Below, in pieces: positions 7,280-51,091 of a DNA stretch of 64,000 nucleotides. Below the pieces are notes generated by a model. The model was not told the DNA's origin and made no database searches. It was given only the letters and a program-made list of their open reading frames with translations. The stretch's first letter is position 1; each line of letters begins with the position of its first letter. This stretch comes from Gottschalkiaceae bacterium SANA (GTDB lineage: Bacteria; Bacillota; Clostridia; Tissierellales; GPF-1), in the NCBI GenBank assembly GCA_036323355.1, contig AP028876.1, positions 930,001 to 994,000 of the forward strand, written 5' to 3'. A program made the translations under genes and the position numbers.

Positions 7280-7960
7280 ATGGCGAAGATTCGAGCAGTA
7301 TTATTTGATGTGGATGGGGTTTTGATCGATTCGATGCCACAATACACAGAAATTTGGCAGCAGGTATTTTCAGAAGCAGGAGTTGAATTGCCGGGTGAGG
7401 TGCTTTATAGAAGAGAGGGAGCCACAAGCCTGGAGACACGGGATTTTTTCAAGTCCTACTCGATGACCAATCATTTGGGTGATCAAAAGATTGATGAAAT
7501 CGAAGCAAGAAAAAGAATCTTAGTTGAGGAAAAAAAAGAGTGGCCCGATTTGCAAGGTGCATTTGACACCTTAAAAGCAGTAAAAGAAACTGGGGCTAAG
7601 GTTGTAGTGGTCACCGGTAGCATGAAGAAAAACTTGCGTGGGAACTTAAGCATGCGATATCCGGGAATGATCGAAGATACTTTGATTCTCACCGGGTATG
7701 ATTACGAGAATTCAAAGCCCCATCCCGAACCCTACTTGCGGGGCATGAAGTTGGCGGCTTGTCATCCTGATGAAGTGATTGTGGTGGAGAACGCGCCCTT
7801 TGGTGTGGAATCTGCCAAGGCCGCAGGGTGCAAATGTTTTGTTGTGAACACGGGAATATTGGACAATAAAGAGCTACTTGAAGCGGGAGCCGATGAGATT
7901 TTTAGTGATCATCGAAGTTTAGCAAAGGCTTTAGTCAAAGAAATTGAGAAAAGCGCGTAA
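7280..7960 (+). CDS. HAD-superfamily phosphatase, beta-phosphoglucomutase-like
   Basis: A 226-residue HAD subfamily IA protein: motif I DVDGVLIDS (residues about 9-17, nucleophile D9 and acid D11), a helical cap, motif II VVTGS, motif III Lys in SKPHPEPY and motif IV VVENAPFGVESAKAAG. The set matches phosphoglycolate phosphatase and beta-phosphoglucomutase-like enzymes; motif IV has VVEN rather than the usual ED pair. A cytoplasmic sugar phosphatase is likely, substrate unknown. It follows the aminopeptidase gene closely and ends in its own terminator. Confidence 0.85.
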   Translation: MAKIRAVLFDVDGVLIDSMPQYTEIWQQVFSEAGVELPGEVLYRREGATSLETRDFFKSYSMTNHLGDQKIDEIEARKRILVEEKKEWPDLQGAFDTLKAVKETGAKVVVVTGSMKKNLRGNLSMRYPGMIEDTLILTGYDYENSKPHPEPYLRGMKLAACHPDEVIVVENAPFGVESAKAAGCKCFVVNTGILDNKELLEAGADEIFSDHRSLAKALVKEIEKSA

Positions 7961-7972
7961 GCGCTTTTTTTA
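7951..7972 (+). terminator. Terminator of the M24/HAD operon
   Basis: Stem AAGCGC / GCGCTT with GTAA loop, which contains the stop codon of the HAD gene, followed by seven T. Confidence 0.75.
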
Positions 7973-7997
7973 TTACAAAAAATTCATAAAATTTATT

Positions 7998-8025
7998 TGA
8001 ACCTTTTTTACACACAGCCGTCTTA
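7998..8025 (+). promoter_or_regulatory. ECF-sigma-type promoter upstream of the sigY-like operon
   Basis: TGAACC (7998-8003) and CGTCTTA (8019-8025) are separated by 15 bases, the architecture of Bacillota ECF promoters (TGAAC ... CGTC, as for SigW, SigX, SigM and SigY). It precedes an operon that itself encodes an ECF sigma factor, so autoregulation is likely. Confidence 0.65.
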
Positions 8026-8056
8026 GGGGTGAAGAAACAAGTAAAAGGAGGAAACG

Positions 8057-8254
8057 ATGAAGTTTTTAATCGAGAATAGCTTGCTGTTATTACCACTTTT
8101 TGCTCTACAATTGGGCTTGGCTTTGTACTGCATACGAAAGATTTTGAAGAATGGGGTTCGTAATTTGTCTAAACCATTGTGGATTGGTTTGGTTCTGCTT
8201 GTCAATCTTGTAGGGCCGCTACTTTTCATGCTGGTCGGTCAAAAGGAGGCATGA
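8057..8254 (+). CDS. Small membrane protein, PLDc_N / YxlE-like
   Basis: A 65-residue protein with two hydrophobic helices (about residues 7-27 and 41-60), with WIGLVLLVNLVGPLLF as in the N-terminal domain of phospholipase-D-like proteins and in Bacillus subtilis YxlE. YxlE is a negative regulator in the sigY operon. A strong AAAGGAGG site precedes the ATG. The next gene starts two bases after the stop, with its ribosome binding site inside this gene. First gene of the sigma operon. Confidence 0.75.
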   Translation: MKFLIENSLLLLPLFALQLGLALYCIRKILKNGVRNLSKPLWIGLVLLVNLVGPLLFMLVGQKEA

Positions 8255-8255
8255 G

Positions 8256-9182
8256 ATGATACGTGTCGAACGATTGGAAAAAAATTTTGGATCGTTTCTT
8301 GCTTTGAACGAGCTGAGTTTTCATGTTTCGAAAGGGTGCATCCACGGTTTTCTTGGACATAATGGTGCAGGCAAAACAACAACACTAAATATCTTGACAG
8401 GATTTTGTCCCTATCTGAAGGGCTCTGTTCAAATCGACGGGATTGAAGTGAAGGGTGCGAAAGATCAGGTGCAAAGAAAAATCGGCTACCTGCCGGAAGC
8501 GCCGCAGTTTTATGAATATATGCAAGCGAAGGAGCTGCTAACGTACTTAGGCAGAATTCAAAAATGGACAAAGCGAGAATCCATTCATCGCGCTGAAGAA
8601 TTGCTTGACTTGGTGGGATTGGAGGATGCAGCAAAGAGAAAAGTGGGGGGATATTCCCGCGGGATGAAACAGCGATTGGGTCTTGCTTGTGCTTTGGTTC
8701 ATGATCCTGAATTGATTTTATTGGATGAGCCGACTTCTGCTTTGGATCCTGAGGGACGCCGCGAGCTTCTAAATTTAATTCAAGAGTTGAAAGCAAGGGG
8801 AAAGACGATCTTGATTTCAACGCATATTCTTTCTGATGTGGAAAGGGTATGCAACAGTGTGACCATGATCAAAGAAGGAAAATGTATTTTGGATTCAGAT
8901 ATCGAGACATTGAAACAGATACAGGGGTCAACCGTTTATCGCATTGAATTTGTCAGAGCAGTCAAGGAAAAGGAACTTCGGCTTTTACGATCCGCTTCAT
9001 TTGTTTCTGAGTTTTCTTGCCAAGAAGCGCTATGTTTCGTTAAAACCCCAAGTGAAGATCCGGCGGTCAGCCTGCTTCTGGCGCAGATCTTAACGAAGTT
9101 GAATCTTCCCTTTCATGCGATTCAGCGCCAGGAGCGAACCCTTGAAGAACTCTATATACGGAGGATGAATGGACATGATTGA
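8256..9182 (+). CDS. ABC transporter ATP-binding protein, YxlF-like
   Basis: A 308-residue ABC ATPase: Walker A GHNGAGKTT (about residues 33-41), signature YSRGMKQRLG, Walker B LILLDEPTSALDPEG, H-loop ISTHILSD. The roughly 90-residue C-terminal extension is usual for ABC-2 exporter ATPases. AAGGAGG sits six bases before the ATG. It corresponds in position and type to YxlF of the sigY operon, with the permease following. Exported substrate unknown. Confidence 0.9.
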   Translation: MIRVERLEKNFGSFLALNELSFHVSKGCIHGFLGHNGAGKTTTLNILTGFCPYLKGSVQIDGIEVKGAKDQVQRKIGYLPEAPQFYEYMQAKELLTYLGRIQKWTKRESIHRAEELLDLVGLEDAAKRKVGGYSRGMKQRLGLACALVHDPELILLDEPTSALDPEGRRELLNLIQELKARGKTILISTHILSDVERVCNSVTMIKEGKCILDSDIETLKQIQGSTVYRIEFVRAVKEKELRLLRSASFVSEFSCQEALCFVKTPSEDPAVSLLLAQILTKLNLPFHAIQRQERTLEELYIRRMNGHD

Positions 9183-18530: not shown

Positions 18531-19259
18531 TCACAATTTTTGATTCCATTTTTTTTCAATCCAGTCAATTCCCTGAAAGCAAAGAACACCCAAGCAAGCA
18601 AGGATGACAATACCTGCAAACATCTGCACATAGTTGATTCGCTGCATGGCATCCATGATGAAAAATCCAATTCCGGATCGCGTGCCAAAAGCTTCTGCCA
18701 AAAAAAGAACAGAAAGGGCAGTGGCGGTTGAAATTCTTGTGGTGGATAGCAGTTGAGGAATTGTTGCGGGAATCACCAGTTCTCGAAAGATCTGAGTTTC
18801 ACTTGCTCCTAAAGCGATCAGTGGAGTGAAAAGTTCAGAATCCAGTTGCATGACTTGATCTCGCGTCATGATGATAATTGGAAAAACGATAATCAGTAAA
18901 ATAAGTCCGATTTTTGGCGCGTCCCCAAGTCCAAAGGCCAGCATAAACAAGGGAAGAAAGGTTGTTTTTGGAATTGGATACAGGAGTGCAAGAATCGGCG
19001 AAAAAACGTGATGAGTCCGTGGATATGTGCCTAGGATTAAGCCCAAAGGATAGCCGATGGCTAGTCCACTCACTACCCCAAGGATCAAGCGTCGGACACT
19101 GGAGAATAAATGACTCCCCATGACCAGACCTTTTCGAGAAAAGATAAAGGCCAAGACCCGAATGGGTGAAGGGAGAATCGGCAATTGAAGGAGGATAGAG
19201 CCTAGCCACCAGATACCAAATACGACTAGAACGGCATAAAGCCAGGGATGGCGTCTCAT
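18531..19259 (-). CDS. ABC importer permease, SsuC/TauC/ThiX-like
   Basis: A 242-residue protein with about six membrane helices and the importer EAA-loop region (ALGASETQIFRELVIPATIPQLL), as in nitrate/sulfonate/taurine-type permeases. It pairs with the ATPase just upstream (four-base overlap) and is the last gene of a nine-gene operon that begins with ndh2. No substrate-binding protein is in the operon; the orphan lipoprotein at 37611-38543 is a candidate. In this context the cargo may be a quinone precursor, which is inference. Confidence 0.88.
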   Translation of the reverse strand: MRRHPWLYAVLVVFGIWWLGSILLQLPILPSPIRVLAFIFSRKGLVMGSHLFSSVRRLILGVVSGLAIGYPLGLILGTYPRTHHVFSPILALLYPIPKTTFLPLFMLAFGLGDAPKIGLILLIIVFPIIIMTRDQVMQLDSELFTPLIALGASETQIFRELVIPATIPQLLSTTRISTATALSVLFLAEAFGTRSGIGFFIMDAMQRINYVQMFAGIVILACLGVLCFQGIDWIEKKWNQKL

Positions 19260-19966
19260 ATATTCACCTCCGGATTGATCAAAAGGGCTCTCAGCTCTTT
19301 CAAGAGGGTATTTTTATGTTGAGCAGTTTTGGTATTGGTTAATTGATGGGTTTTTCCATCCTGCATCACCAGGATTTGATCGCCAAAACGAAGGGCTTCC
19401 TCCAGACTATGGGTAACGAGCAGGGTTGTGGGTTTTGTCTTGGCCCATACTTGGTCAAAGAGTCTATAGGCGGTCTCTTTCGTAATCTCATCCAAGGCAG
19501 AAAAGGGTTCATCTAAAAGAAAGAGATCTGGTGAAAGATAAAAAGCACGTGCCAGGGCAACCCGCTGCTGTTCGCCGCCAGAAAGTCGCCGTGGCGATCG
19601 GTCTAGAAGAGAGTTCAGGCTAAATCCTTCTATAATTTCTGAAAAAAATTCGGGGTCAGCTGGCATCTTTCGGATTCTTCTACCAAGTTCGATATTCTTT
19701 TTAACAGAATGCCATGGATAGAGACCATAACCTTGGGGAACGTATCCAATTCGGTGACGATTCACGGATAAGTCTTCATGATTGAACATAATTGCGCCAG
19801 TGTGAGGCTGATGAATCCCCCCCAATGACTTTAATAGGGTCGTTTTGCCCAATCCAGAGGCACCGATGACAGCCAATACCTCATTTTTCTTCAATGAAAA
19901 AGAAAGAGTAGAGAATGGAATGACTCCATCGGAAAAAGCGATCGATAGATTTTGAACATCTAGCAT
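19256..19966 (-). CDS. ABC importer ATP-binding protein, SsuB/TauB/ThiZ-like
   Basis: A 236-residue ATPase with Walker A GASGLGKTT (near residue 35), signature LSGGEQQRVALARA, Walker B LFLLDEPFSALDE and H-loop VTHSLEEAL, the usual features of the nitrate/sulfonate/taurine importer class. Its start lies two bases from the ubiX stop, so it is translated within the quinone operon. It energises the following permease. The position, rather than the sequence, suggests a link to quinone supply. Confidence 0.9.
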   Translation of the reverse strand: MLDVQNLSIAFSDGVIPFSTLSFSLKKNEVLAVIGASGLGKTTLLKSLGGIHQPHTGAIMFNHEDLSVNRHRIGYVPQGYGLYPWHSVKKNIELGRRIRKMPADPEFFSEIIEGFSLNSLLDRSPRRLSGGEQQRVALARAFYLSPDLFLLDEPFSALDEITKETAYRLFDQVWAKTKPTTLLVTHSLEEALRFGDQILVMQDGKTHQLTNTKTAQHKNTLLKELRALLINPEVNI

Positions 19967-19967
19967 C

Positions 19968-20549
19968 TTATTCCTCCCAACGGGTATGAAAATTGTGGTT
20001 CAGCCCCAGGTGATCAAAGATTCGTCCCATCATTTGATCCAGCAATTCCTCGATTGTTTGAGGATGATGGTAAAAAGAGGGACTAATGGGCATAATGGTT
20101 GCACCCGTTTTTGATAGTTTTAATAGGTTCTCTAAGTGAATCGCATGCAGGGGTGTTTCCCGAGTTAAGAGCAAGAGGGGAAATTTTTCCTTAAGGCAGA
20201 CATCGGCTGCGCGAATTAAGAGGTTGTCACTGGTAGCAGCGGCGATTCGTCCTGCGGTTCCCATGGAACAGGGACAGACGATCATTCCTGCAAAGCGCCT
20301 TGATCCACTGGCAATGGGAGAAAAGAATGAAGTCACTGTTTCGATATGGAAGCTACCTTCGCCTAGGCGAGCAATGCCTTGGTCCAAGGAAAAACCCATT
20401 TCATGTTTAAAGACTAAGGCACCTGTTTCTGTAGCAACGACATAGACCTCAAGTTTTTCTTCATTCAATTTTTGAAGCAGACGCCAGGCATAGGGGCTAC
20501 CTGAGGCGCCAGTGATTCCAACGATATAAGGTTTCGTCAATGGTTTCAT
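19968..20549 (-). CDS. ubiX: UbiX-family flavin prenyltransferase
   Basis: A 193-residue flavoprotein of the UbiX/Pad1 family, with the N-terminal ITGASGSPYAWRLL nucleotide-binding motif and PCSMGTAGRIAAATSDNLLIRAADV. It attaches a dimethylallyl group to FMN to make the prenylated FMN that UbiD decarboxylases need; the cognate ubiD lies two genes upstream. In futalosine-type menaquinone synthesis the equivalent is MqnM. ATG 20549 has GGGAGGATC upstream and overlaps the ubiA stop. Confidence 0.93.
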   Translation of the reverse strand: MKPLTKPYIVGITGASGSPYAWRLLQKLNEEKLEVYVVATETGALVFKHEMGFSLDQGIARLGEGSFHIETVTSFFSPIASGSRRFAGMIVCPCSMGTAGRIAAATSDNLLIRAADVCLKEKFPLLLLTRETPLHAIHLENLLKLSKTGATIMPISPSFYHHPQTIEELLDQMMGRIFDHLGLNHNFHTRWEE

Positions 20550-21418
20550 CCGATCCTCCCAATGATCCAAGCATCCAATAAAGCCATGGTCAGGTAGAGG
20601 ATGCTGACAATTTGATTGATATGGTAGCTAGCCCAATTCATAATTCCATGGTTTGCAGGTTGAACGATATGATGCTCAATACTGAGCAAGAAAGCAATGA
20701 CGACCATGCCAACAAGATAAAGCCAGCCGATTCCGCCTATGGCGCCTGCGAGAAAGAAAAAGCCCCAGGCGAAGACATGAAAAATCTTTGCAATGATGAG
20801 GGCGTTTTTCAGCCCGAACCGTTCTGGAATGGAATGGAGCCCGACACTTTTGTCAAAATCGATGTCCTGGGTGCCGTAGAGGGTATCAAATCCTGCGATC
20901 CAGAAGGTTACCCCAGCGGCCAAAACCAGTGGGGGAAGGGCAAGTTTGCCTGTTACTGCAATCCAAGCACCTACCGGTGCGCCGGCACAGATAGCGCCCA
21001 AAACCAAATGGCAGGCCCACGTCCAACGTTTTGTATAGGAATACAGCAAAAAGAGGGCGATGGCAAGGGGCGACAAAACAAAACAGAGAAAATTTAATTG
21101 ATAGGCTGCAAAGACAAAGATAGCCAAAAGGACAGTCGTCAAAATGATGGCTTCTGATTTTTTTACTTTTCCTTGGGGAATTTGGCGGCCGGCCGTTCGC
21201 GGATTTTCTTTGTCGTAATCGGCATCGATCACACGGTTGATGGCGTTTGCTGCATTTCTGCCAGCAAATAAGGCGATCAGGATCCAAAAGACAAGACGGG
21301 CAGAGGGGAATCCCTCTGCCGCCCAAATCATGGATACTGCCGCAAAGGGCAGGGAGAACAGGGTATGTGAGAACATGACCAATTCGCCAAATTGACGAAT
21401 TTTATTAATCAAGCCCAT
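20546..21418 (-). CDS. ubiA: UbiA-family prenyltransferase (MqnP/UbiA type)
   Basis: A 290-residue membrane protein with about nine helices and two aspartate-rich motifs: NAINRVIDADYDKENPRT (near residue 57) and DTLYGTQDIDFDKSVGLHS (near 180). It would transfer a polyprenyl chain to an aromatic acid. The pairing with UbiD and UbiX, rather than a MenA-type enzyme that also decarboxylates, points to 4-hydroxybenzoate-like or 1,4-dihydroxy-6-naphthoate (futalosine) chemistry. It overlaps the upstream ubiD gene by 14 bases. Confidence 0.92.
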   Translation of the reverse strand: MGLINKIRQFGELVMFSHTLFSLPFAAVSMIWAAEGFPSARLVFWILIALFAGRNAANAINRVIDADYDKENPRTAGRQIPQGKVKKSEAIILTTVLLAIFVFAAYQLNFLCFVLSPLAIALFLLYSYTKRWTWACHLVLGAICAGAPVGAWIAVTGKLALPPLVLAAGVTFWIAGFDTLYGTQDIDFDKSVGLHSIPERFGLKNALIIAKIFHVFAWGFFFLAGAIGGIGWLYLVGMVVIAFLLSIEHHIVQPANHGIMNWASYHINQIVSILYLTMALLDAWIIGRIG

Positions 21419-22847
21419 ATTCTGCCCACTTCTTTGTGACCTGGTCTACAATATCTTGATCCATTTCGATATCGTCCGGCCATTGGCGTGGATGACCTTC
21501 ACTGCGTGTCTTCTTCGTTGCGTCAACGCCCAATCGACTGCCATGGAATGCTGTTGGTGACGAGTGATCCAGGGCATCCAAGGGACCGTCGGAAATGACA
21601 AGATCACGTTTTGGATCAATATTGTTAAATACCTTCCACATGACAACCGAGACGTCCTGAACATCAACGGTGTGATCCACAACGATAATCATCTTGGTAT
21701 ACATCATTTGGCCAAGTCCCCAAAGAGCATGCATGACCTTATGAGCGTGCTTGGGATATTTCTTTTCGATGGAAATGATACAGCAATTATGAAATACCCC
21801 TTCCAAGGGAAGGTTCATATCAATAATTTCCGGAACAAAGAGTCGCATCAATGGCAAAAAGATCCGTTCTGTGGCTTTTGCCATATAGCAATCTTCCATG
21901 GGTGGCTTTCCAACAATGGTTGCTGGATATACTGGATTTTTTCTATGTGTGACTTTTTCTACATGGAAGACAGGATATTCGTCTGCCAAAGAATAATAAC
22001 CCGTGTGATCGCCGAAAGGTCCCTCCAGACGCCGCTCATCGAGATCAACATATCCTTCCAATACGAATTCTGCATTGGCTGGTACATAGATATCGTTGGT
22101 TACGGATTTTACGATCCGTAGGGGCTTCTTACGAAGAAAACCGGAGAAGAGCATTTCATCAATCATTTTTGGCAAGGGAGCTGTTGCGGCATAGGTCGTT
22201 GCAGGATCGCAACCGAAAGCAACAGAAACCGGCATCCGTTGGATGCCCATTTCGCGATGCTTTTCATAGATCATTTTGCCGTCCTTATGCAGATGCCAAT
22301 GCATCCCTGTGGTTTTTGCATCATATTTTTGTAACCGATACATACCCATGTTTTGTTGGCCGGTTTCGGGATCCTTGGTTATCACCAAAGGAAGGGTCAT
22401 ATAGGGACCGCCATCCTGCGGCCAGCAGGTTAGAATGGGCAATTCATCGAGATTCGCATCCTCGACAACCTCTTGGCATTCCGCAACTTTGACCTTACGT
22501 GGAATGACAGCTGTAAGAGGTGCAAGTTTTGGTAGGGATTTCACTGCGCCTAGAAAGCTCATATATTGCTTGAGATCCAAGTAGTCCGAGATCCGATCGG
22601 CAATTTCGTCTAGGTGATTGACACCAAGGGACATTGCCATCCGCTTTTCTGAACCAAAGGCGTTCATTAATACCGGATAGTCTGAACCTTCTACGTTTTC
22701 AAAGAGAAGGGCAGGACCATTTTGTTTGGAAACCCGGTCTGTGATTTCAGTGATTTCAAGGTTTGTAGAAACCGGTGTCTTAATTCGTTTCAATTCGCCA
22801 ATTTTTTCTAATTCTTTAATAAAATCCTGTAAATCTTTATAAGCCAT
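21405..22847 (-). CDS. ubiD: UbiD-family decarboxylase (UbiD/MqnL type)
   Basis: A 480-residue protein typical of UbiD decarboxylases, with conserved regions MHWHLHKDG, EGPFGDHTGYYSL and PPMEDCYMAKATERIFLP. The enzyme uses prenylated FMN (made by UbiX) to remove the ring carboxylate of a prenylated aromatic acid. In the operon it sits between the polyprenyl synthase and UbiA, so the three steps of tail synthesis, attachment and decarboxylation are grouped. AGGAGG precedes the ATG. The exact ring substrate cannot be told from sequence. Confidence 0.94.
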   Translation of the reverse strand: MAYKDLQDFIKELEKIGELKRIKTPVSTNLEITEITDRVSKQNGPALLFENVEGSDYPVLMNAFGSEKRMAMSLGVNHLDEIADRISDYLDLKQYMSFLGAVKSLPKLAPLTAVIPRKVKVAECQEVVEDANLDELPILTCWPQDGGPYMTLPLVITKDPETGQQNMGMYRLQKYDAKTTGMHWHLHKDGKMIYEKHREMGIQRMPVSVAFGCDPATTYAATAPLPKMIDEMLFSGFLRKKPLRIVKSVTNDIYVPANAEFVLEGYVDLDERRLEGPFGDHTGYYSLADEYPVFHVEKVTHRKNPVYPATIVGKPPMEDCYMAKATERIFLPLMRLFVPEIIDMNLPLEGVFHNCCIISIEKKYPKHAHKVMHALWGLGQMMYTKMIIVVDHTVDVQDVSVVMWKVFNNIDPKRDLVISDGPLDALDHSSPTAFHGSRLGVDATKKTRSEGHPRQWPDDIEMDQDIVDQVTKKWAEYGLD

Positions 22848-22857
22848 AAAATGCCTC

Positions 22858-23826
22858 CTAGTATCGGCGTTCCAATAAGGATTGGTAAACCGTATGAAGG
22901 ATTGCGCGGCTTTCGCAATCCGGGGTTCTATTTAATGCTTCGTATGCTTTTTTTGTATACTTTTTGGCAAGGATCTGTGCCTTTTTAACGCCACCCAAGG
23001 TAATGACTTGATTTTGGATCCAAGTGAGATCTGCTTTTGAGAGTGAAGATTCATTCAGTCGCTTTTGCAGTTGACCCGTTGAATCTGCTTTCAAGGCATA
23101 AATGATGGGCAGGGTCATAAATCCCTGTTTAATATCGTTTTGCGCACTTTTCGAAAGGGTTTTGTCCTCACCGGTATAATCAAGACAATCGTCAATGATT
23201 TGAAAAGCCATGCCCGCTCGCAAACCGGAAAGGGCCAACTGATGGGCTTTACGGTGTGAAAGGTCCCCCTCAAGGGCACCCGCATAAAGACTCACTGAAA
23301 AAAGTGCTGCCGTTTTTCCACTGATCACTCGCAGGTATTGTGAAACTGAGAGTGCGGTGTCATGGCGAAAGCGATATTGCTTAAGTTCACCACGGCAGAT
23401 TTTAAAAATGGCTTTGGCAATCTCTGTATTGGAATCTTCCTTTTGGTAACGACTCATGATAAGAAAAGTTTTGGCAAAGAGATAGTCACCTAAATAAACG
23501 GCAACATCGGTTCCGTACTTGGATGGGACTGCTTCAATTCCACGGCGTAGCTTGGATTGATCAATGATATCGTCATGGATCAATGTTGAAAGATGAAGTA
23601 GTTCTACCGATGCTGCTATGGCTTGAATACGTTTAGGATCTGGATTGCCGTAATTTCCAGCGATTAGAACAAAAGCCGGACGCATTTTTTTTCCGCCTGT
23701 TTGAATGAGTTCAATCAAGGGCTGAGAAATAAAGGGTTCGGCATCTTTTGTTTCCTGAAGCATCAAGTCATGTACCCGCTGTAGCTCAACTTGGATAGTG
23801 GGAAATTGCTCCCAATAATTTTGCAT
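22858..23826 (-). CDS. Polyprenyl diphosphate synthase (quinone tail)
   Basis: A 322-residue trans-prenyltransferase with the first Asp-rich motif DDIIDQS (near residue 85), GKTAALFS, and the second motif DDCLDYTGE (near 215). It makes the isoprenoid chain (probably heptaprenyl or similar) for quinone. It corresponds to DmkB in the Listeria EET locus. It lies between eetB and ubiD in the operon with 10-17 base gaps. Confidence 0.93.
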   Translation of the reverse strand: MQNYWEQFPTIQVELQRVHDLMLQETKDAEPFISQPLIELIQTGGKKMRPAFVLIAGNYGNPDPKRIQAIAASVELLHLSTLIHDDIIDQSKLRRGIEAVPSKYGTDVAVYLGDYLFAKTFLIMSRYQKEDSNTEIAKAIFKICRGELKQYRFRHDTALSVSQYLRVISGKTAALFSVSLYAGALEGDLSHRKAHQLALSGLRAGMAFQIIDDCLDYTGEDKTLSKSAQNDIKQGFMTLPIIYALKADSTGQLQKRLNESSLSKADLTWIQNQVITLGGVKKAQILAKKYTKKAYEALNRTPDCESRAILHTVYQSLLERRY

Positions 23827-23843: not shown

Positions 23844-24359
23844 TTATTGAAACTGAAAGCCAAATCGTTTGAGATAAGGCAGAAGATAGCGGGTTACGAT
23901 TCCAACAAATAGCCCTGTTGGAATGGCAAGCAACATCAAAAACGGAAGATAGTAGAGAATATTTAGGTTTTCGATGACCAGAGCTGCCATTAGCAATTGC
24001 CCCAAGTTATGGGCGATTGCACCGATGATGCTGACGGCCATTAAGCTAAAGCTTTTAGGCAGAAATTTCAATACAAGAGCCATCACAATGAGACTGAGTA
24101 AGCCACCGGATAAGGAGTAGAGCAGGGAAGAAACCGTCCCAAAAAGAAAGGAGGTTAAGGTCGTGCGCATGACGACAATGGTGAAACAGCTCTTATAATC
24201 CATAGTGGACAGTGCGATCAAGGTGACAATATTTGCAAGTCCCAGCTTTGCACCTGGAATGCCTGGTGTAAAGGGGATCATTGATTCTAGCCAACTTAGC
24301 ACCATTGCTTGGGCGACAAGAAGGGATAAAAAAACAAGCTTTCTTGTATTTGATTTCAT
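23844..24359 (-). CDS. eetB: Gx transporter family membrane protein, EetB-like
   Basis: A 171-residue protein with five or six helices and the family region LESMIPFTPGIPGAKLGLANIVTL. The family was formerly called heptaprenyl diphosphate synthase component I, and resembles substrate-binding components of ECF transporters. In Listeria monocytogenes the equivalent beside Ndh2 is EetB, needed for extracellular electron transfer; its exact role is unknown. It begins three bases after the eetA stop, with GAGGAG as binding site. Confidence 0.85.
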   Translation of the reverse strand: MKSNTRKLVFLSLLVAQAMVLSWLESMIPFTPGIPGAKLGLANIVTLIALSTMDYKSCFTIVVMRTTLTSFLFGTVSSLLYSLSGGLLSLIVMALVLKFLPKSFSLMAVSIIGAIAHNLGQLLMAALVIENLNILYYLPFLMLLAIPTGLFVGIVTRYLLPYLKRFGFQFQ

Positions 24360-24362
24360 GGT

Positions 24363-24719
24363 TTACTCCTCGATAGGTTGATCGGTAATATAAACAATCA
24401 ATTGGTGGGGGAGACATACGATCATATCGCCAACTTGGCTTGCCGATTTCGTCTCAACACAAATTTGATCGGGACAATCCGATTCTATCATGTTCGCCAC
24501 GCCTTGTGAAATAATCACAAGATTATAGACTGCTTCATCACCGACTCTAATCTCTCGTTCTGTCGACTGAGTGAGTGGAATCACTTCAACCAGTTCTCCA
24601 TAGGATTCAATAACAACCCATTGATCAGCCTCTGGTTCTTTTGTTGTTTTCATCCAGAGCAAAGCGGCGATTGCGATTGCCGCAACGACGAGGATCAGAA
24701 TGATATCATTTTTCTTCAT
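24363..24719 (-). CDS. eetA: NusG domain II membrane protein, EetA-like
   Basis: A 118-residue protein: an N-terminal membrane anchor (residues about 5-23) followed by an extracytoplasmic NusG domain II with the signature SDCPDQICVETKSASQVGD and IVCLPHQLIV. The two cysteine motifs (CPDQIC and VCLP) are typical of the family. It is the counterpart of EetA in the Listeria EET cluster, always paired with the Gx protein. Function unknown; possibly supports flavoprotein or transporter assembly. Confidence 0.85.
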   Translation of the reverse strand: MKKNDIILILVVAAIAIAALLWMKTTKEPEADQWVVIESYGELVEVIPLTQSTEREIRVGDEAVYNLVIISQGVANMIESDCPDQICVETKSASQVGDMIVCLPHQLIVYITDQPIEE

Positions 24720-24788: not shown

Positions 24789-26651
24789 CTATTCAAGTTC
24801 GTCCCAGTATAGATACCCTTTGCCGCCAATATGTGTTTTGCTCCACCAGAGACGCAGTCGAGGGAGGACATAATAGTCCAAGCCGAAGGTGCTTCCGGCT
24901 CCACCGATCAAGGCGATACCACCAAAGAAGAACCAAAGAATGCTGACGTCTGTCATGGTTGTCAAAGTAAAGGCGATGGTTAATACAACACTGATTGCAG
25001 AAGATAGGAAAGTAAACAAGCCTACAATCAATAAAGCGCCAACGGCCATTTCTGTTAAGACAATCATAATTTGGAAGAAAACAGGTGCTTGTGCATAAAT
25101 ATTGTCGAGGAACCATTGCATGATTCCAGGTACATTTTTCAATAAGGGCTCACCGTAGGCCGAGGCAGTTTCAACAACTGCTTCTGCGGCTCCACTGGCA
25201 GCTGTGACAGTTTCAACGACTGCTTCTGCGGCTCCAGAAGCGGCTGAGGTTGCATCTGCTGCAACTGGAGAAGGGGTTAATAACCAACCCATCTTCATTT
25301 CTTTCAGCCAACCCTCACCAATTTTATTGTAGCCTTCAATTAGCCACATGACACCTAGGTAAATTCTTAGAGGAACCAACCAGAAGTTTGGTGAAGCTGT
25401 TGCGAAATGACCACCAACAAAAGAACGACGGTGTTTCACACGGAAAAATTCATGACGCCAATAGTTCCATAGCTGGCGAACGCCTCCAACAGTGAAGAGA
25501 TATAGGAAGTTGACCAAATGCTTGACCAACATGGCCATCCATCCGTTGAATCGAATTCCACGGGTATCAGATACTGCGTAGCGGGATCCAACCGAAACCA
25601 TAAAGCCATCATATTTTTGTTCGTGGGTATGAAGTTCTCCACCTTGAATCATTTGGATGATATTGCTTGCTGCTGTATGGCCTGAAGCCTCGGCTGCCTG
25701 AACGATCTGTGGCATTGGACCGTCTTGATCCTCGTATGCCGCATTGTCACCGACAGCGAATACATTTTTGTATTCTGTTGTCTGCATATATTCATTGACA
25801 AGGATACGGCCTCCGCGACCTACGGTTAATCCTAGTTTTGCTGCAAATGAGTTGTTTTTGATTCCGGCAGCCCAGATCAAAGTTTGACAAGGAACGACTT
25901 CACCACTTTTTAAGGTAAAGGCATTTTCTTCTACTTTGATGATTGGAGCATTGGTGCGAAGCTCAATTCCAAGTTTTTGATATCGCTGTTGAACCTTTTC
26001 AACTTGGCTATCTTTTTCAAGCATATTTAAAATGCGTCCCATCGCTTCAATATTGTAAACTTTTACTTCGTTGGGATCGATGTCGTATTTACGGGAAAGA
26101 TGTTCTTTTGCTTCTCCCAATTCACCGGCCATTTCAACACCGGTAAAACCACCACCGCAAACTGCAAAGGTTAATAGCTCTTTTCGCTTTTCTAGATCTT
26201 CGGTGCGAGAAGCGAGATCGTACATGTTTTCTACATGTTCGCGAAGATCAGTTGCGTCTTCGTAAGACCATAGGGTGTGTGAATGCTCTTCAGCACCCTC
26301 AACTCCAAAGAAGTTTGACTCATTGCCTGTTGCAACAACAAGATAGTCGTAAGGATATTCGTTTTGTTGACCCTTTAGACATTGACCTTCCAAGTCAATG
26401 GATGCGATTTCATCAAATCGTACATTAACCATTCGACCGCGGAAGACCTTTTTCAGATCAACGGTGATCGCGTCAGGTTCAGTTCGATGACCGGCAACTT
26501 CGTGAAGTTCAGTCATCAATGTATGGAATCGATGGCGATCGATTAAGGTGATTTCTACATTCGAGTCTTTTTTAAAGGCTTTATGCAGAACTTTTCCTGC
26601 CTTAATTCCAGCGTAGCCACCGCCAAGAATTACAATTTTTGTCGGATTCAT
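24789..26651 (-). CDS. ndh2: Type II NADH dehydrogenase Ndh2 with C-terminal DoxX-like membrane domain
   Basis: A 620-residue protein. Residues 1-400 are a two-dinucleotide-fold flavoprotein: FAD motif VILGGGYAGIKAG (from residue 7), NADH motif FAVCGGGFTGVEMAGELGE and the late FAD motif NVFAVGDNAAYED. From about 420 a DoxX-like membrane domain follows (LRIYLGVMWLIEGYNKIGEGWL and three later helices), interrupted near 467-495 by two copies of a 14-residue Ala/Glu-rich repeat. It would oxidise NADH and reduce quinone, the entry point for extracellular electron transfer, as Listeria Ndh2. ATG 26651 has GGGAGGG; first gene of the operon. Confidence 0.94.
   Translation of the reverse strand: MNPTKIVILGGGYAGIKAGKVLHKAFKKDSNVEITLIDRHRFHTLMTELHEVAGHRTEPDAITVDLKKVFRGRMVNVRFDEIASIDLEGQCLKGQQNEYPYDYLVVATGNESNFFGVEGAEEHSHTLWSYEDATDLREHVENMYDLASRTEDLEKRKELLTFAVCGGGFTGVEMAGELGEAKEHLSRKYDIDPNEVKVYNIEAMGRILNMLEKDSQVEKVQQRYQKLGIELRTNAPIIKVEENAFTLKSGEVVPCQTLIWAAGIKNNSFAAKLGLTVGRGGRILVNEYMQTTEYKNVFAVGDNAAYEDQDGPMPQIVQAAEASGHTAASNIIQMIQGGELHTHEQKYDGFMVSVGSRYAVSDTRGIRFNGWMAMLVKHLVNFLYLFTVGGVRQLWNYWRHEFFRVKHRRSFVGGHFATASPNFWLVPLRIYLGVMWLIEGYNKIGEGWLKEMKMGWLLTPSPVAADATSAASGAAEAVVETVTAASGAAEAVVETASAYGEPLLKNVPGIMQWFLDNIYAQAPVFFQIMIVLTEMAVGALLIVGLFTFLSSAISVVLTIAFTLTTMTDVSILWFFFGGIALIGGAGSTFGLDYYVLPRLRLWWSKTHIGGKGYLYWDELE
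25167..25250 (-). repeat. Two 42-bp tandem repeats inside ndh2
   Basis: AGTTTCAAC begins at 25167 and again at 25209, giving an in-frame 42-base (14-residue) duplication that encodes an AASGAAEAVVET linker twice. It lies in a loop of the DoxX-like domain. Confidence 0.8.
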
Positions 26652-26742
26652 AGGTTCCCTCCCAGTTCTTTGATAATTAATTAACAACAAATTGTGTAAA
26701 ATGTGTAGAATTGTATAAATGGACAAATAAATAGTACAAAAA

Positions 26743-27087: not shown

Positions 27088-28692
27088 ATGAAGAAGTTGA
27101 CAGTATTACTAATTGTTTTGATGGCAGTTACTGCTTTAGCAGGTTGTGCACCAACGGCACCGGTAGAACCAGAGGCGCCAGAGGCACCAGCACAAGAAAC
27201 AGCAAGCTTTGATGTAGCGGACGGTGTGTACTATGCACAAGAAGCCGAATTTGCAGGTAGCGGTTGGAAATATAATGTAACTCTTGAGGTTGCAGGTGGA
27301 AAAATTCTTGATGTGAACTGGAACGGCACCAACGTTCGCGGTGGAGACGATAAGAAGACCCTTTCTGCTAATGGTGGATACGGAATGGTTGCCTATGGTG
27401 CTGCACAGTCAGAATGGGATGTGCAAGCAGAGATGGTAGAACAATACCTATTGGATAACCAAACAACAGAAGTTGCTTATACGGATGATGAAGGTCATAC
27501 GGATGCAATTACGGGTGTTTCGATCCATGTAACAGAGTTCTTCGGTTTAGTAGATGAAGCATTGGTTAATGGACCCGTTGCCAAAGGTGATTATACAGAT
27601 GGTTATTACTATGCAGAACTTGCTGAAGACGACAAAGGTTTCACATACCTTGGCCAGTTCCAAGTTGTAAATGGAACCATTGTTGGAGCAAACTTGAATG
27701 CAAAATTCTTAAATGAAGAAGAAAAAGATTCTTCTAAGAAAGAATTAGGCGATGATTATGGTATGGTAGCAAATGGTGGCGCGCAAGCGGAATGGTATGC
27801 ACAAGCAGAAGCGGTAGAATCATTTATTCTTGCAAACCAAGGATTTGATATTGTGCTTGACGCAGAAGGAAAGACCGATGCGGTTGCTGGAGCCTCTATT
27901 CACCTGAATCAGTTTGTTGAATTGTTTAACATGACATTGGGTGGTGGAGAGACTGCAGCCATGGCAGACGGTGTTTACTATGCACAAGAAGCTGCATTTG
28001 CTGGAAGCGGTTGGAAATACAATGTGACCCTTACAGTAGAAAATGAAAAGATCGTTGATGTTAACTGGAACGGAACCAACGTTCGCGGTGGAGATGACAA
28101 GAAAACAACTTCTGAGAGTGGTGCATATGGCATGGTTGCTTACGGAAACGCACAATCAGAGTGGGACGTTCAAGCCAAAGCGGTAGAGCAGTATTTATTG
28201 GATACTCAAACAACAGAAATTGCTTATACGGATGACCAAGGTCATACGGATGCAATCACAGGTGTTTCGATCCATGTAACAGAGTTCTTTGGTTTAGTAG
28301 ATGAAGCATTGGCTAATGGACCTGTTGCCAAAGGCGACTACACAGATGGCTACTACTATGCAGAACTTGCCGAAGATGAAAAAGGATATACCTATATTGG
28401 TCAGTTCCAAGTTGTCAACGGAACCATCGTGGCAGTTAACTTTAACGCCAATGGCAAGACTGAAGATGGAGAAGACACTTCGAAAAAAGAATTGGGTGAT
28501 GCATATAACATGGTTGCATTCGGTGGTGCCCAGGCGGAATGGTTCGCACAAGCAGCATCAATTGAAGGCTTTGTTATTGAAAATCAAGATTTAACACTTG
28601 AGTTGGATGCCGATGGAAAAACTGACGCAATTGCGGGTGCTTCTATTGGGATGACACAATTTGTTGAATTGTTTGCAGCAGCATTGAAGTAA
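27088..28692 (+). CDS. pplA: PplA-like flavinylated lipoprotein with four FMN-binding domains
   Basis: A 534-residue lipoprotein: signal peptide with lipobox LAGC (Cys near 20), a Pro/Glu/Ala linker to about residue 44, then four FMN_bind domains starting near residues 45, 171, 294 and 420. Each ends with a variant of the ApbE attachment motif: DAITGVS (139-145 and 388-394), DAVAGAS (264-270) and DAIAGAS (513-519). Domains 1 and 3, and 2 and 4, are near copies. In Listeria, PplA carries two FMN groups and passes electrons to extracellular acceptors. AGGAGGAG precedes ATG 27088. The apbE gene follows. Confidence 0.93.
   Translation: MKKLTVLLIVLMAVTALAGCAPTAPVEPEAPEAPAQETASFDVADGVYYAQEAEFAGSGWKYNVTLEVAGGKILDVNWNGTNVRGGDDKKTLSANGGYGMVAYGAAQSEWDVQAEMVEQYLLDNQTTEVAYTDDEGHTDAITGVSIHVTEFFGLVDEALVNGPVAKGDYTDGYYYAELAEDDKGFTYLGQFQVVNGTIVGANLNAKFLNEEEKDSSKKELGDDYGMVANGGAQAEWYAQAEAVESFILANQGFDIVLDAEGKTDAVAGASIHLNQFVELFNMTLGGGETAAMADGVYYAQEAAFAGSGWKYNVTLTVENEKIVDVNWNGTNVRGGDDKKTTSESGAYGMVAYGNAQSEWDVQAKAVEQYLLDTQTTEIAYTDDQGHTDAITGVSIHVTEFFGLVDEALANGPVAKGDYTDGYYYAELAEDEKGYTYIGQFQVVNGTIVAVNFNANGKTEDGEDTSKKELGDAYNMVAFGGAQAEWFAQAASIEGFVIENQDLTLELDADGKTDAIAGASIGMTQFVELFAAALK
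27220..28692 (+). repeat. 747-bp in-frame tandem duplication inside pplA
   Basis: The block from 27220 recurs from 27967 with a 747-base (249-residue) offset, kept without frame change. Long stretches are almost identical at DNA level, for example around 27493 and 28240, so the duplication is fairly recent or kept similar by conversion. Confidence 0.88.
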
Positions 28693-28699
28693 ATGAATC

Positions 28700-28737
28700 A
28701 AAAGCGGGCTTCTCAAAAGGAAGTCCGCTTTTTTTTA
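28700..28737 (+). terminator. Terminator of pplA
   Basis: Stem AAAGCGG-GCTT / AAGT-CCGCTTT (one G-U) around CTCAAAAGG, followed by eight T. Confidence 0.75.
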
Positions 28738-28766: not shown

Positions 28767-28791
28767 GGGTACAGATTAAAGGGGGATGAGT

Positions 28792-29868
28792 ATGAGGATT
28801 AAACGAAGTATTCAAGTGTTGGGAATCGTGCTTGTAACGGCAATTGCTCTTGTAGGATGTGCGCAGAAGGAATCGCCTCAAGTCGTGGAAACACCCTCAA
28901 AGGCATCGTATATAGAGGATCATGCTTTTCAGCTCGATACAATTATAACGGTCAAACTCTATGGAGAAGAAGATACAAGCTTGATTGAGGATTCTTTTTC
29001 ACGGATTGAAGAACTGGAAAAAATGCTTAGTGTTCACCTCGAGGGTAGCGACTTGGCAAAAATACGCGATGCAGCTGGGATTTCGGCAGTCAAGGTGCAG
29101 GCGGAGACCTTTGAAGTGATGGAAGCCGCTCTTGGGTACGCAGAACTCTCACAAGGTCGGTTTGACCCGACGGCAGGACCATTGATTGACCTATGGGGAA
29201 TAGACCCTCCAGAAGGCCACCTAGCAACAGAAGAAGAATTGGCTGACATAAAACCCCTGATCGATTATCAAAAATTGATTGTGGATGGAGAAGCTGGAAC
29301 AATTTATCTTCAGGATGAAAAGATGATTGCCAATCTTGGTGCCATTGCTAAAGGCTATATTGCAGACGAGGTGAAAGAACAATTGGTGGACGCTGGTGTA
29401 ACTAGTGGTATTATCAATCTTGGCGGAAATGTGCTGTTGATCGGTGGAAAGCCGGATGGATCGGATTTTCGAATTGGGGTTCAGGACCCGGATAGCTTGC
29501 GTGGAGAGTATTTGGGCATTGTTTCCTTAAAGGATGAGTCCATTGTAACCTCAGGCGATTATGAACGTTTTTTTGAAGTGAATGGAAAGAAGTATCATCA
29601 TATTCTTGATCCTTTTACAGGATTTCCAGCTCAAAATAGTTTGCGTTCCGTTACAATTATCAGCCCAAAGTCAACGGATGGAGATGCCTTGTCGACCACA
29701 TGCTTCTTACTGGGGCTTGATGAAGGAATCAAGTTGATTCGGTCCCTGCCGTCTATTGACGCGATTTTTGTTACCAAGGATGATCGTATGATCTTCAGTT
29801 CGCAGGACTTGTTGGATCGCTATCAATCAACAAATGAAGCAATGGAAGAAGAGGTTTATGCGCAATAA
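28792..29868 (+). CDS. fmnB: FAD:protein FMN transferase lipoprotein (ApbE/FmnB)
   Basis: A 358-residue lipoprotein with lipobox LVGC and an ApbE domain: DTIITVKLYG, DPTAGPLIDLWGI, the FAD-binding NLGAIAKGYIAD, INLGGNVLLIGG and the metal-site HHILDPFTGFPA. ApbE enzymes move FMN from FAD to a Ser/Thr of an FMN_bind domain outside the membrane, using Mg. The preceding flavolipoprotein is the obvious substrate. ATG 28792 is six bases after AGGGGG; an ATG at 28786 is too close to it. Confidence 0.95.
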   Translation: MRIKRSIQVLGIVLVTAIALVGCAQKESPQVVETPSKASYIEDHAFQLDTIITVKLYGEEDTSLIEDSFSRIEELEKMLSVHLEGSDLAKIRDAAGISAVKVQAETFEVMEAALGYAELSQGRFDPTAGPLIDLWGIDPPEGHLATEEELADIKPLIDYQKLIVDGEAGTIYLQDEKMIANLGAIAKGYIADEVKEQLVDAGVTSGIINLGGNVLLIGGKPDGSDFRIGVQDPDSLRGEYLGIVSLKDESIVTSGDYERFFEVNGKKYHHILDPFTGFPAQNSLRSVTIISPKSTDGDALSTTCFLLGLDEGIKLIRSLPSIDAIFVTKDDRMIFSSQDLLDRYQSTNEAMEEEVYAQ

Positions 29869-50910: not shown

Positions 50911-51091
50911 TGACGGTCCTTCATTAACATATAATCGTAGGCCCGTCCTCATGACGGTCCTTCATTAACATATAATCGTAGGCCCGTCCTCATGACGGTC
51001 CTTCATTAACATATAATCGTAGGCCCGTCCTCATGACGGTCCTTCATAAACATATAATCGTAGGCCCGTCCTCCTGACGGTCCTTCATTAA
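50911..51091. repeat. 41-bp tandem repeat, 4.4 copies
   Basis: Units start at 50911, 50952, 50993, 51034 and 51075 (last cut after 17 bases). Copies 1-3 are identical; copy 4 has two changes (CATAAAC; ending CTCC). There are no spacers, so it is not CRISPR. A hairpin CCGTC-CTCAT-GACGG forms across each junction. It lies between two minus-strand genes, 18 bases after the stop of the small membrane protein. Confidence 0.93.

Follow-up and report, generated by a model that had tools for sequence, protein, structure and literature searches.

In Listeria monocytogenes, the flavolipoprotein PplA carries FMN on Thr143 and Thr265 (PMC8906456). Meheust et al. (2021) described proteins in which as many as 13 flavinylation sites are predicted and proposed a role in longer-distance electron transfer; the longer 'electron wire' is a published hypothesis for the multi-flavinylated class (PMC8238504). 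Structural models of such proteins often resemble loosely linked beads on a string (PMC11334425), and three- and four-flavin proteins have already been purified (Tong et al. 2023, PMC10339131). Our search of a limited set of papers returned nothing relevant on intragenic changes of domain number in such flavoproteins or on four-domain lipoproteins of the flavin-based extracellular electron transfer (FLEET) system.

The window analysed here is a stretch of 64,000 nucleotides from Gottschalkiaceae bacterium SANA, whose genome is a single 3.49-Mb contig. Judged by its gene content, it includes a nearly complete FLEET locus as known from Listeria: ndh2, eetA, eetB, dmkA/B and apbE (fmnB) are found together with a flavolipoprotein gene (27088-28692, forward strand). 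The downstream gene on the same strand (28786-29868) encodes an FmnB-like ApbE flavin transferase that is itself a lipoprotein (PF02424, 290 bits). The gap between the two contains an intrinsic-terminator-like hairpin (28700-28732, forward strand), of a kind no more numerous in the region than in shuffled sequences; it would favour production of more flavolipoprotein substrate than transferase. The other genes are on the opposite strand. Profile searches identify Ndh2 with a C-terminal DoxX/DoxD-like extension (24789-26726), EetA (NusG_II domain, 24363-24719), EetB (Hpre_diP_synt_I, 23844-24359), a DmkB-like polyprenyl synthase (22858-23826) and a UbiD-family decarboxylase (21405-22847). They are followed by a prenyltransferase of the UbiA/MqnP type in the DmkA position (20546-21418, TIGR01475 over cut-off) and a UbiX-family flavin prenyltransferase (19968-20570, TIGR00421 over cut-off), which places a UbiA/MqnP-type prenyltransferase, UbiX and UbiD (19968-22847) within an electron-export locus. 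Ndh2 also includes a duplicated 42-bp Ala/Glu-rich linker (25159-25242), and similar Ala-rich linker repeats occur in a spirochaete Ndh2 (L015).

A search of the genome for quinone genes gave no MenB match, no MqnC match over the cut-off and a single weak match to the MqnA/MqnD family (PF02621). The quinone precursor may be scavenged. Genes for an ABC permease and ATPase (18531-19966) adjoin the quinone genes and possibly specify a putative importer of an aromatic precursor. The genome also contains 13 other FMN_bind matches besides the flavolipoprotein. Among those examined, six are proteins of more than 600 residues that combine FMN_bind with FAD_binding_2, several with clear lipoboxes. These are fumarate-reductase-like reductases that may act as downstream acceptors. 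Elsewhere in the window (50911-51091), a 41-bp unit with GACGG...CCCGTC ends is present in 4.4 head-to-tail copies that are 97% alike; no other such array was found in the genome, nor in the two congeners discussed below.

The flavolipoprotein gene is the only one of its kind in the genome. Its 534-residue product begins with a lipoprotein signal (MKKLTVLLIVLMAVTALAGC), and the export signal can be read directly as an (A)LAGC lipobox at Cys20. After the signal peptide and a Pro/Ala/Glu-rich linker (27088-27213) come four domains, where two are usual, each some 120 residues long and delimited with a domain HMM: D1 (27214-27579), D2 (27580-27939), D3 (27961-28326) and D4 (28327-28692). Each contains a Dxx[S/T]GA[S/T]-like flavinylation motif, and all four motifs end in Ser. 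These are, in order, DAITGVS, DAVAGAS, DAITGVS and DAIAGAS, beginning at residues 139, 264, 388 and 513, and the predicted acceptors are Ser145 (27520-27522), Ser270 (27895-27897), Ser394 (28267-28269) and Ser519 (28642-28644). The Ala at the fourth place of the motif in D2 and D4 is shared with many relatives. Domains, motifs and export signal together support assignment to the multi-flavinylated extracytosolic class (lipoproteins with more than one FMN-binding domain), flavin occupancy being predicted.

The whole protein matches PF04205 (FMN_bind) at 26.4 bits against a cut-off of 22. When the domains are searched in isolation, only D4 gives a match, and this (16.9 bits) is below the gathering score. 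The protein therefore represents a divergent FMN_bind branch. The strict NCBIfam PplA model (NF041941) gives a partial match of 37.1 bits, far under its curated cut-off of 325, and the accurate label is consequently 'PplA-like'. A Pfam match to HutF_N is considered spurious: it exceeds the cut-off for the whole protein only, and isolated D1 scores too low. Among solved structures, 2kzx lies closest to D1 (about 50% identity), with a fold match of Z 13.8. The predicted fold of D2 matches the flavinylated domains SaFMN3-D2 (Z 8.5) and CbFMN4-D1 (Z 7.9); D3 and D4 were barely compared. The structure model is of moderate confidence (mean pLDDT 71, pTM 0.45), and the geometry between domains cannot be read from it.

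The original prediction, that a tandem duplication of a two-domain unit gave rise to four flavin-binding domains in a Listeria-type electron-transfer locus, is supported. The offset of exactly 747 nt that it reported is borne out, the halves of the gene repeating in a gap-free register over about 242 codons. Of the 242 aligned residues, 186 (77%) are identical, which excludes chance likeness. The description of the DNA as near-identical is wrong. The two copies share 80% of their bases in the best-matching 300 nt, about 76% across 245 codons and 72% across D2/D4. No exact match is longer than 29 nt, and identity exceeds 90% over only about 110 nt (27448-27560). At the protein level D1 and D3 are 85% identical and D2 and D4 68%. 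Synonymous divergence between copies is near saturation (dS about 1.1 with NG86 to 1.4 with YN00) and dN is about 0.14. The resulting dN/dS of about 0.13 indicates that both units are under purifying constraint. With about 76% identity and near-saturated synonymous sites, neither a recent event nor a simple duplication by the assembler can explain the repeat. About every fourth base (24%) differs between the copies, and the genome is a single contig, so that an assembly artefact, the refutation envisaged in the original prediction, is excluded in practice. The 747-nt repeat is absent from the Tandem Repeats Finder output because the longest period there is 500.

Two congeners of the window species, G001 and G002, are present in the searched genomes, both as fragmented assemblies. 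The FLEET locus is found in each, with a flavolipoprotein of two domains (285 residues from an MKK start). The two proteins differ in composition: G001 has D1+D4, and G002 has D1+D2 and a tail that may be D4-like. The dS of six locus genes (about 0.5-0.8 between G001 and G002, 0.6-1.6 from either to the window species) gives the species order (window,(G001,G002)). In the domain tree, window D2 groups with G002 D2 (support 98/88) and window D4 with the second domain of G001 (100/92), while the first domains of G001 and G002 join window D1, leaving window D3 outside the D1 group (99/90). A clade of window D2 and D4, as expected from a recent duplication, is rejected by the AU test (dlnL 53.3, p=4.8e-5). 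So is a clade of the second domains of G001 and G002 (p=1.9e-4), a group that was named after the tree had been seen. For D1/D3 alone a recent duplication is not rejected (p=0.11), and converted sequence may blur the signal there.

Distances and individual sites point in the same direction. Over D2/D4, dS is 1.15 between window unit B and G001 and 1.22 between window unit A and G002. These values match the species dS, which favours vertical descent. At 17 residues of the same stretch, window unit A agrees with G002 and unit B with G001, and no residue shows the pattern of a recent duplication. The G001 gene switches from unit-A-like to unit-B-like within its length (permutation p=0.0002, bootstrap intervals excluding zero). 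The corresponding switch to a D4-like tail in G002 is weak (p=0.025) and only suggestive. No D2-D3 remnant was found in the G001 and G002 assemblies, which are fragmented, may lack small contigs and may have collapsed repeats. The domain tree, AU test, dS and site patterns show that the duplication is older than the split between the three species. As G001 retains D1+D4 and G002 D1+D2, two separate contractions are implied. The window species thus retains the ancestral four-domain state, and its sisters seem to have been cut back independently. The earlier statement that 'this lineage has doubled' its possible flavin count is misleading: the doubling is older than the known species of the genus, the two-domain sisters look like secondary contractions, and another family of the order has a doubling of its own.

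The stretch of high identity within D1 (27448-27560, forward strand) is shared with 28195-28307, and its dS is 0.2-0.4 compared with about 1-2 elsewhere. This is probably a gene conversion tract across the D1/D3 flavinylation motif. When all sites are used, none of 20,000 permutations reaches the observed clustering of identity; with synonymous sites only, the result is weaker (p=0.038). Recombination between copies would then have acted in two ways: by converting part of D1/D3 in the window gene, and by deleting two domains independently in the sisters, leaving D1+D4 in G001 and D1+D2 in G002. Overall, we consider it likely that this is a FLEET flavolipoprotein in which one in-frame duplication of D1-D2 took place before the three species arose, followed by conversion in the window species and by independent two-domain deletions in G001 and G002.

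Related proteins contain one, two, three or four domains. G013, a genome from a different family of the order, includes a four-domain gene (L053, about 7324-8970) with a dS of 0.39 between its halves, while its congener G014, at a dS of 0.6-1.3, has a two-domain version. It was rejected as an instance of the same doubling: its domains group together and with G014, and the half-to-half dS is below the species dS. By these measures, the G013 doubling of the same two-domain unit is independent and younger. Four-domain spirochaete proteins (L015, L016) were not accepted as the same doubling either: their first three domains resemble one another, whereas D4 belongs to a separate type. A broader proposal, made here only tentatively and with more doubt than confidence, is that flavin-domain number is an evolutionarily adjustable length: homologous recombination between the copies would double two-domain units and trim them back time after time, with the number set by selection on reach through the cell wall or on acceptor use.

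By analogy with Listeria, Ndh2 would reduce the membrane quinone, EetA and EetB would pass electrons outward and ApbE would load each of the four Ser residues with FMN. Electrons would then pass along the linked flavodomains to external acceptors, probably including the FMN_bind/FAD_binding_2 reductases of the genome. We infer that the flavolipoprotein is the extracytosolic flavin carrier of the electron-export locus. A different view of the extra pair of domains is that it is dispensable and that recombination simply makes domain number drift, with little effect on electron transfer. We give this view a little less than even weight. It accommodates the range of one to four domains among relatives and a contraction that apparently occurred twice in one small genus, and a pplA mutant of L. 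plantarum still gave wild-type current (PMC8837199). The intact state of all four acceptor motifs and the low dN/dS (about 0.13) between copies argue against it. Recurrent contraction speaks for two domains being enough; purifying constraint on each unit speaks for both being in use.

The order of events could also be read in other ways. The ancestor might have carried two adjacent, separate two-domain genes (D1-D2 and D3-D4), which were fused in the window lineage while the sisters lost or recombined one of them. This requires the same early duplication and predicts an identical domain tree, but separate genes occur neither in the window species nor in its two known congeners, and the D1+D4 chimera of G001 would still require recombination between copies; we regard it as improbable. 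Less probable still is that the second unit was acquired horizontally from a G001-like relative and then fused. The grouping of D4 with G001 domain 2 would be explained, but at 1.15 the dS between them is the same as that between the species and gives no hint of a recent transfer, and D3 is placed outside the D1 group, not near the D1 of G001. A recent tandem duplication confined to the window species, as the original prediction implies, would account for the exact 747-nt register and the roughly 110 nt in which identity exceeds 90% but is hardly credible given a copy-to-copy dS (1.1-1.4) as large as that between species and its rejection for D2/D4 (AU p=4.8e-5).

With an early duplication and later contractions as the preferred reading, a single genus offers one syntenic electron-export lipoprotein in a four-domain form and in two differing two-domain contractions, together with an independent doubling nearby. 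This natural series in domain number is a comparative set for testing whether the number of flavins changes electron reach.

Comparison with described systems places the protein as follows. Like PplA in the FLEET locus of Listeria monocytogenes, it is a lipoprotein encoded with ApbE, Ndh2, EetA/B and quinone genes; PplA is flavinylated, whereas flavinylation is predicted here. It differs from PplA in having four domains and predicted Ser acceptors, and in its score to the NCBIfam PplA model (37 bits, cut-off 325). With the multi-flavinylated proteins of Meheust et al. 2021, a class common in Gram-positive bacteria (PMC8238504), it shares an extracytosolic location and more than one FMN-binding domain. 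It also resembles CbFMN4 and SaFMN3 (PMC10339131), for which four and three covalent FMN, respectively, are predicted, in its repeated domains and flanking flavin transferase gene. The solved domains of these proteins are shorter and share only 14-18% identity with D2, although the D2 fold matches both, and D1 and D3, unlike them, are of a longer type nearest to 2kzx. The latter, from A3DHT5 of Clostridium thermocellum, is the nearest solved relative of D1; one domain has been solved and the protein is recorded as uncharacterized. Both the multi-flavin type of protein and the wire idea are already published; what this case adds is a dated duplication and a natural contraction series.
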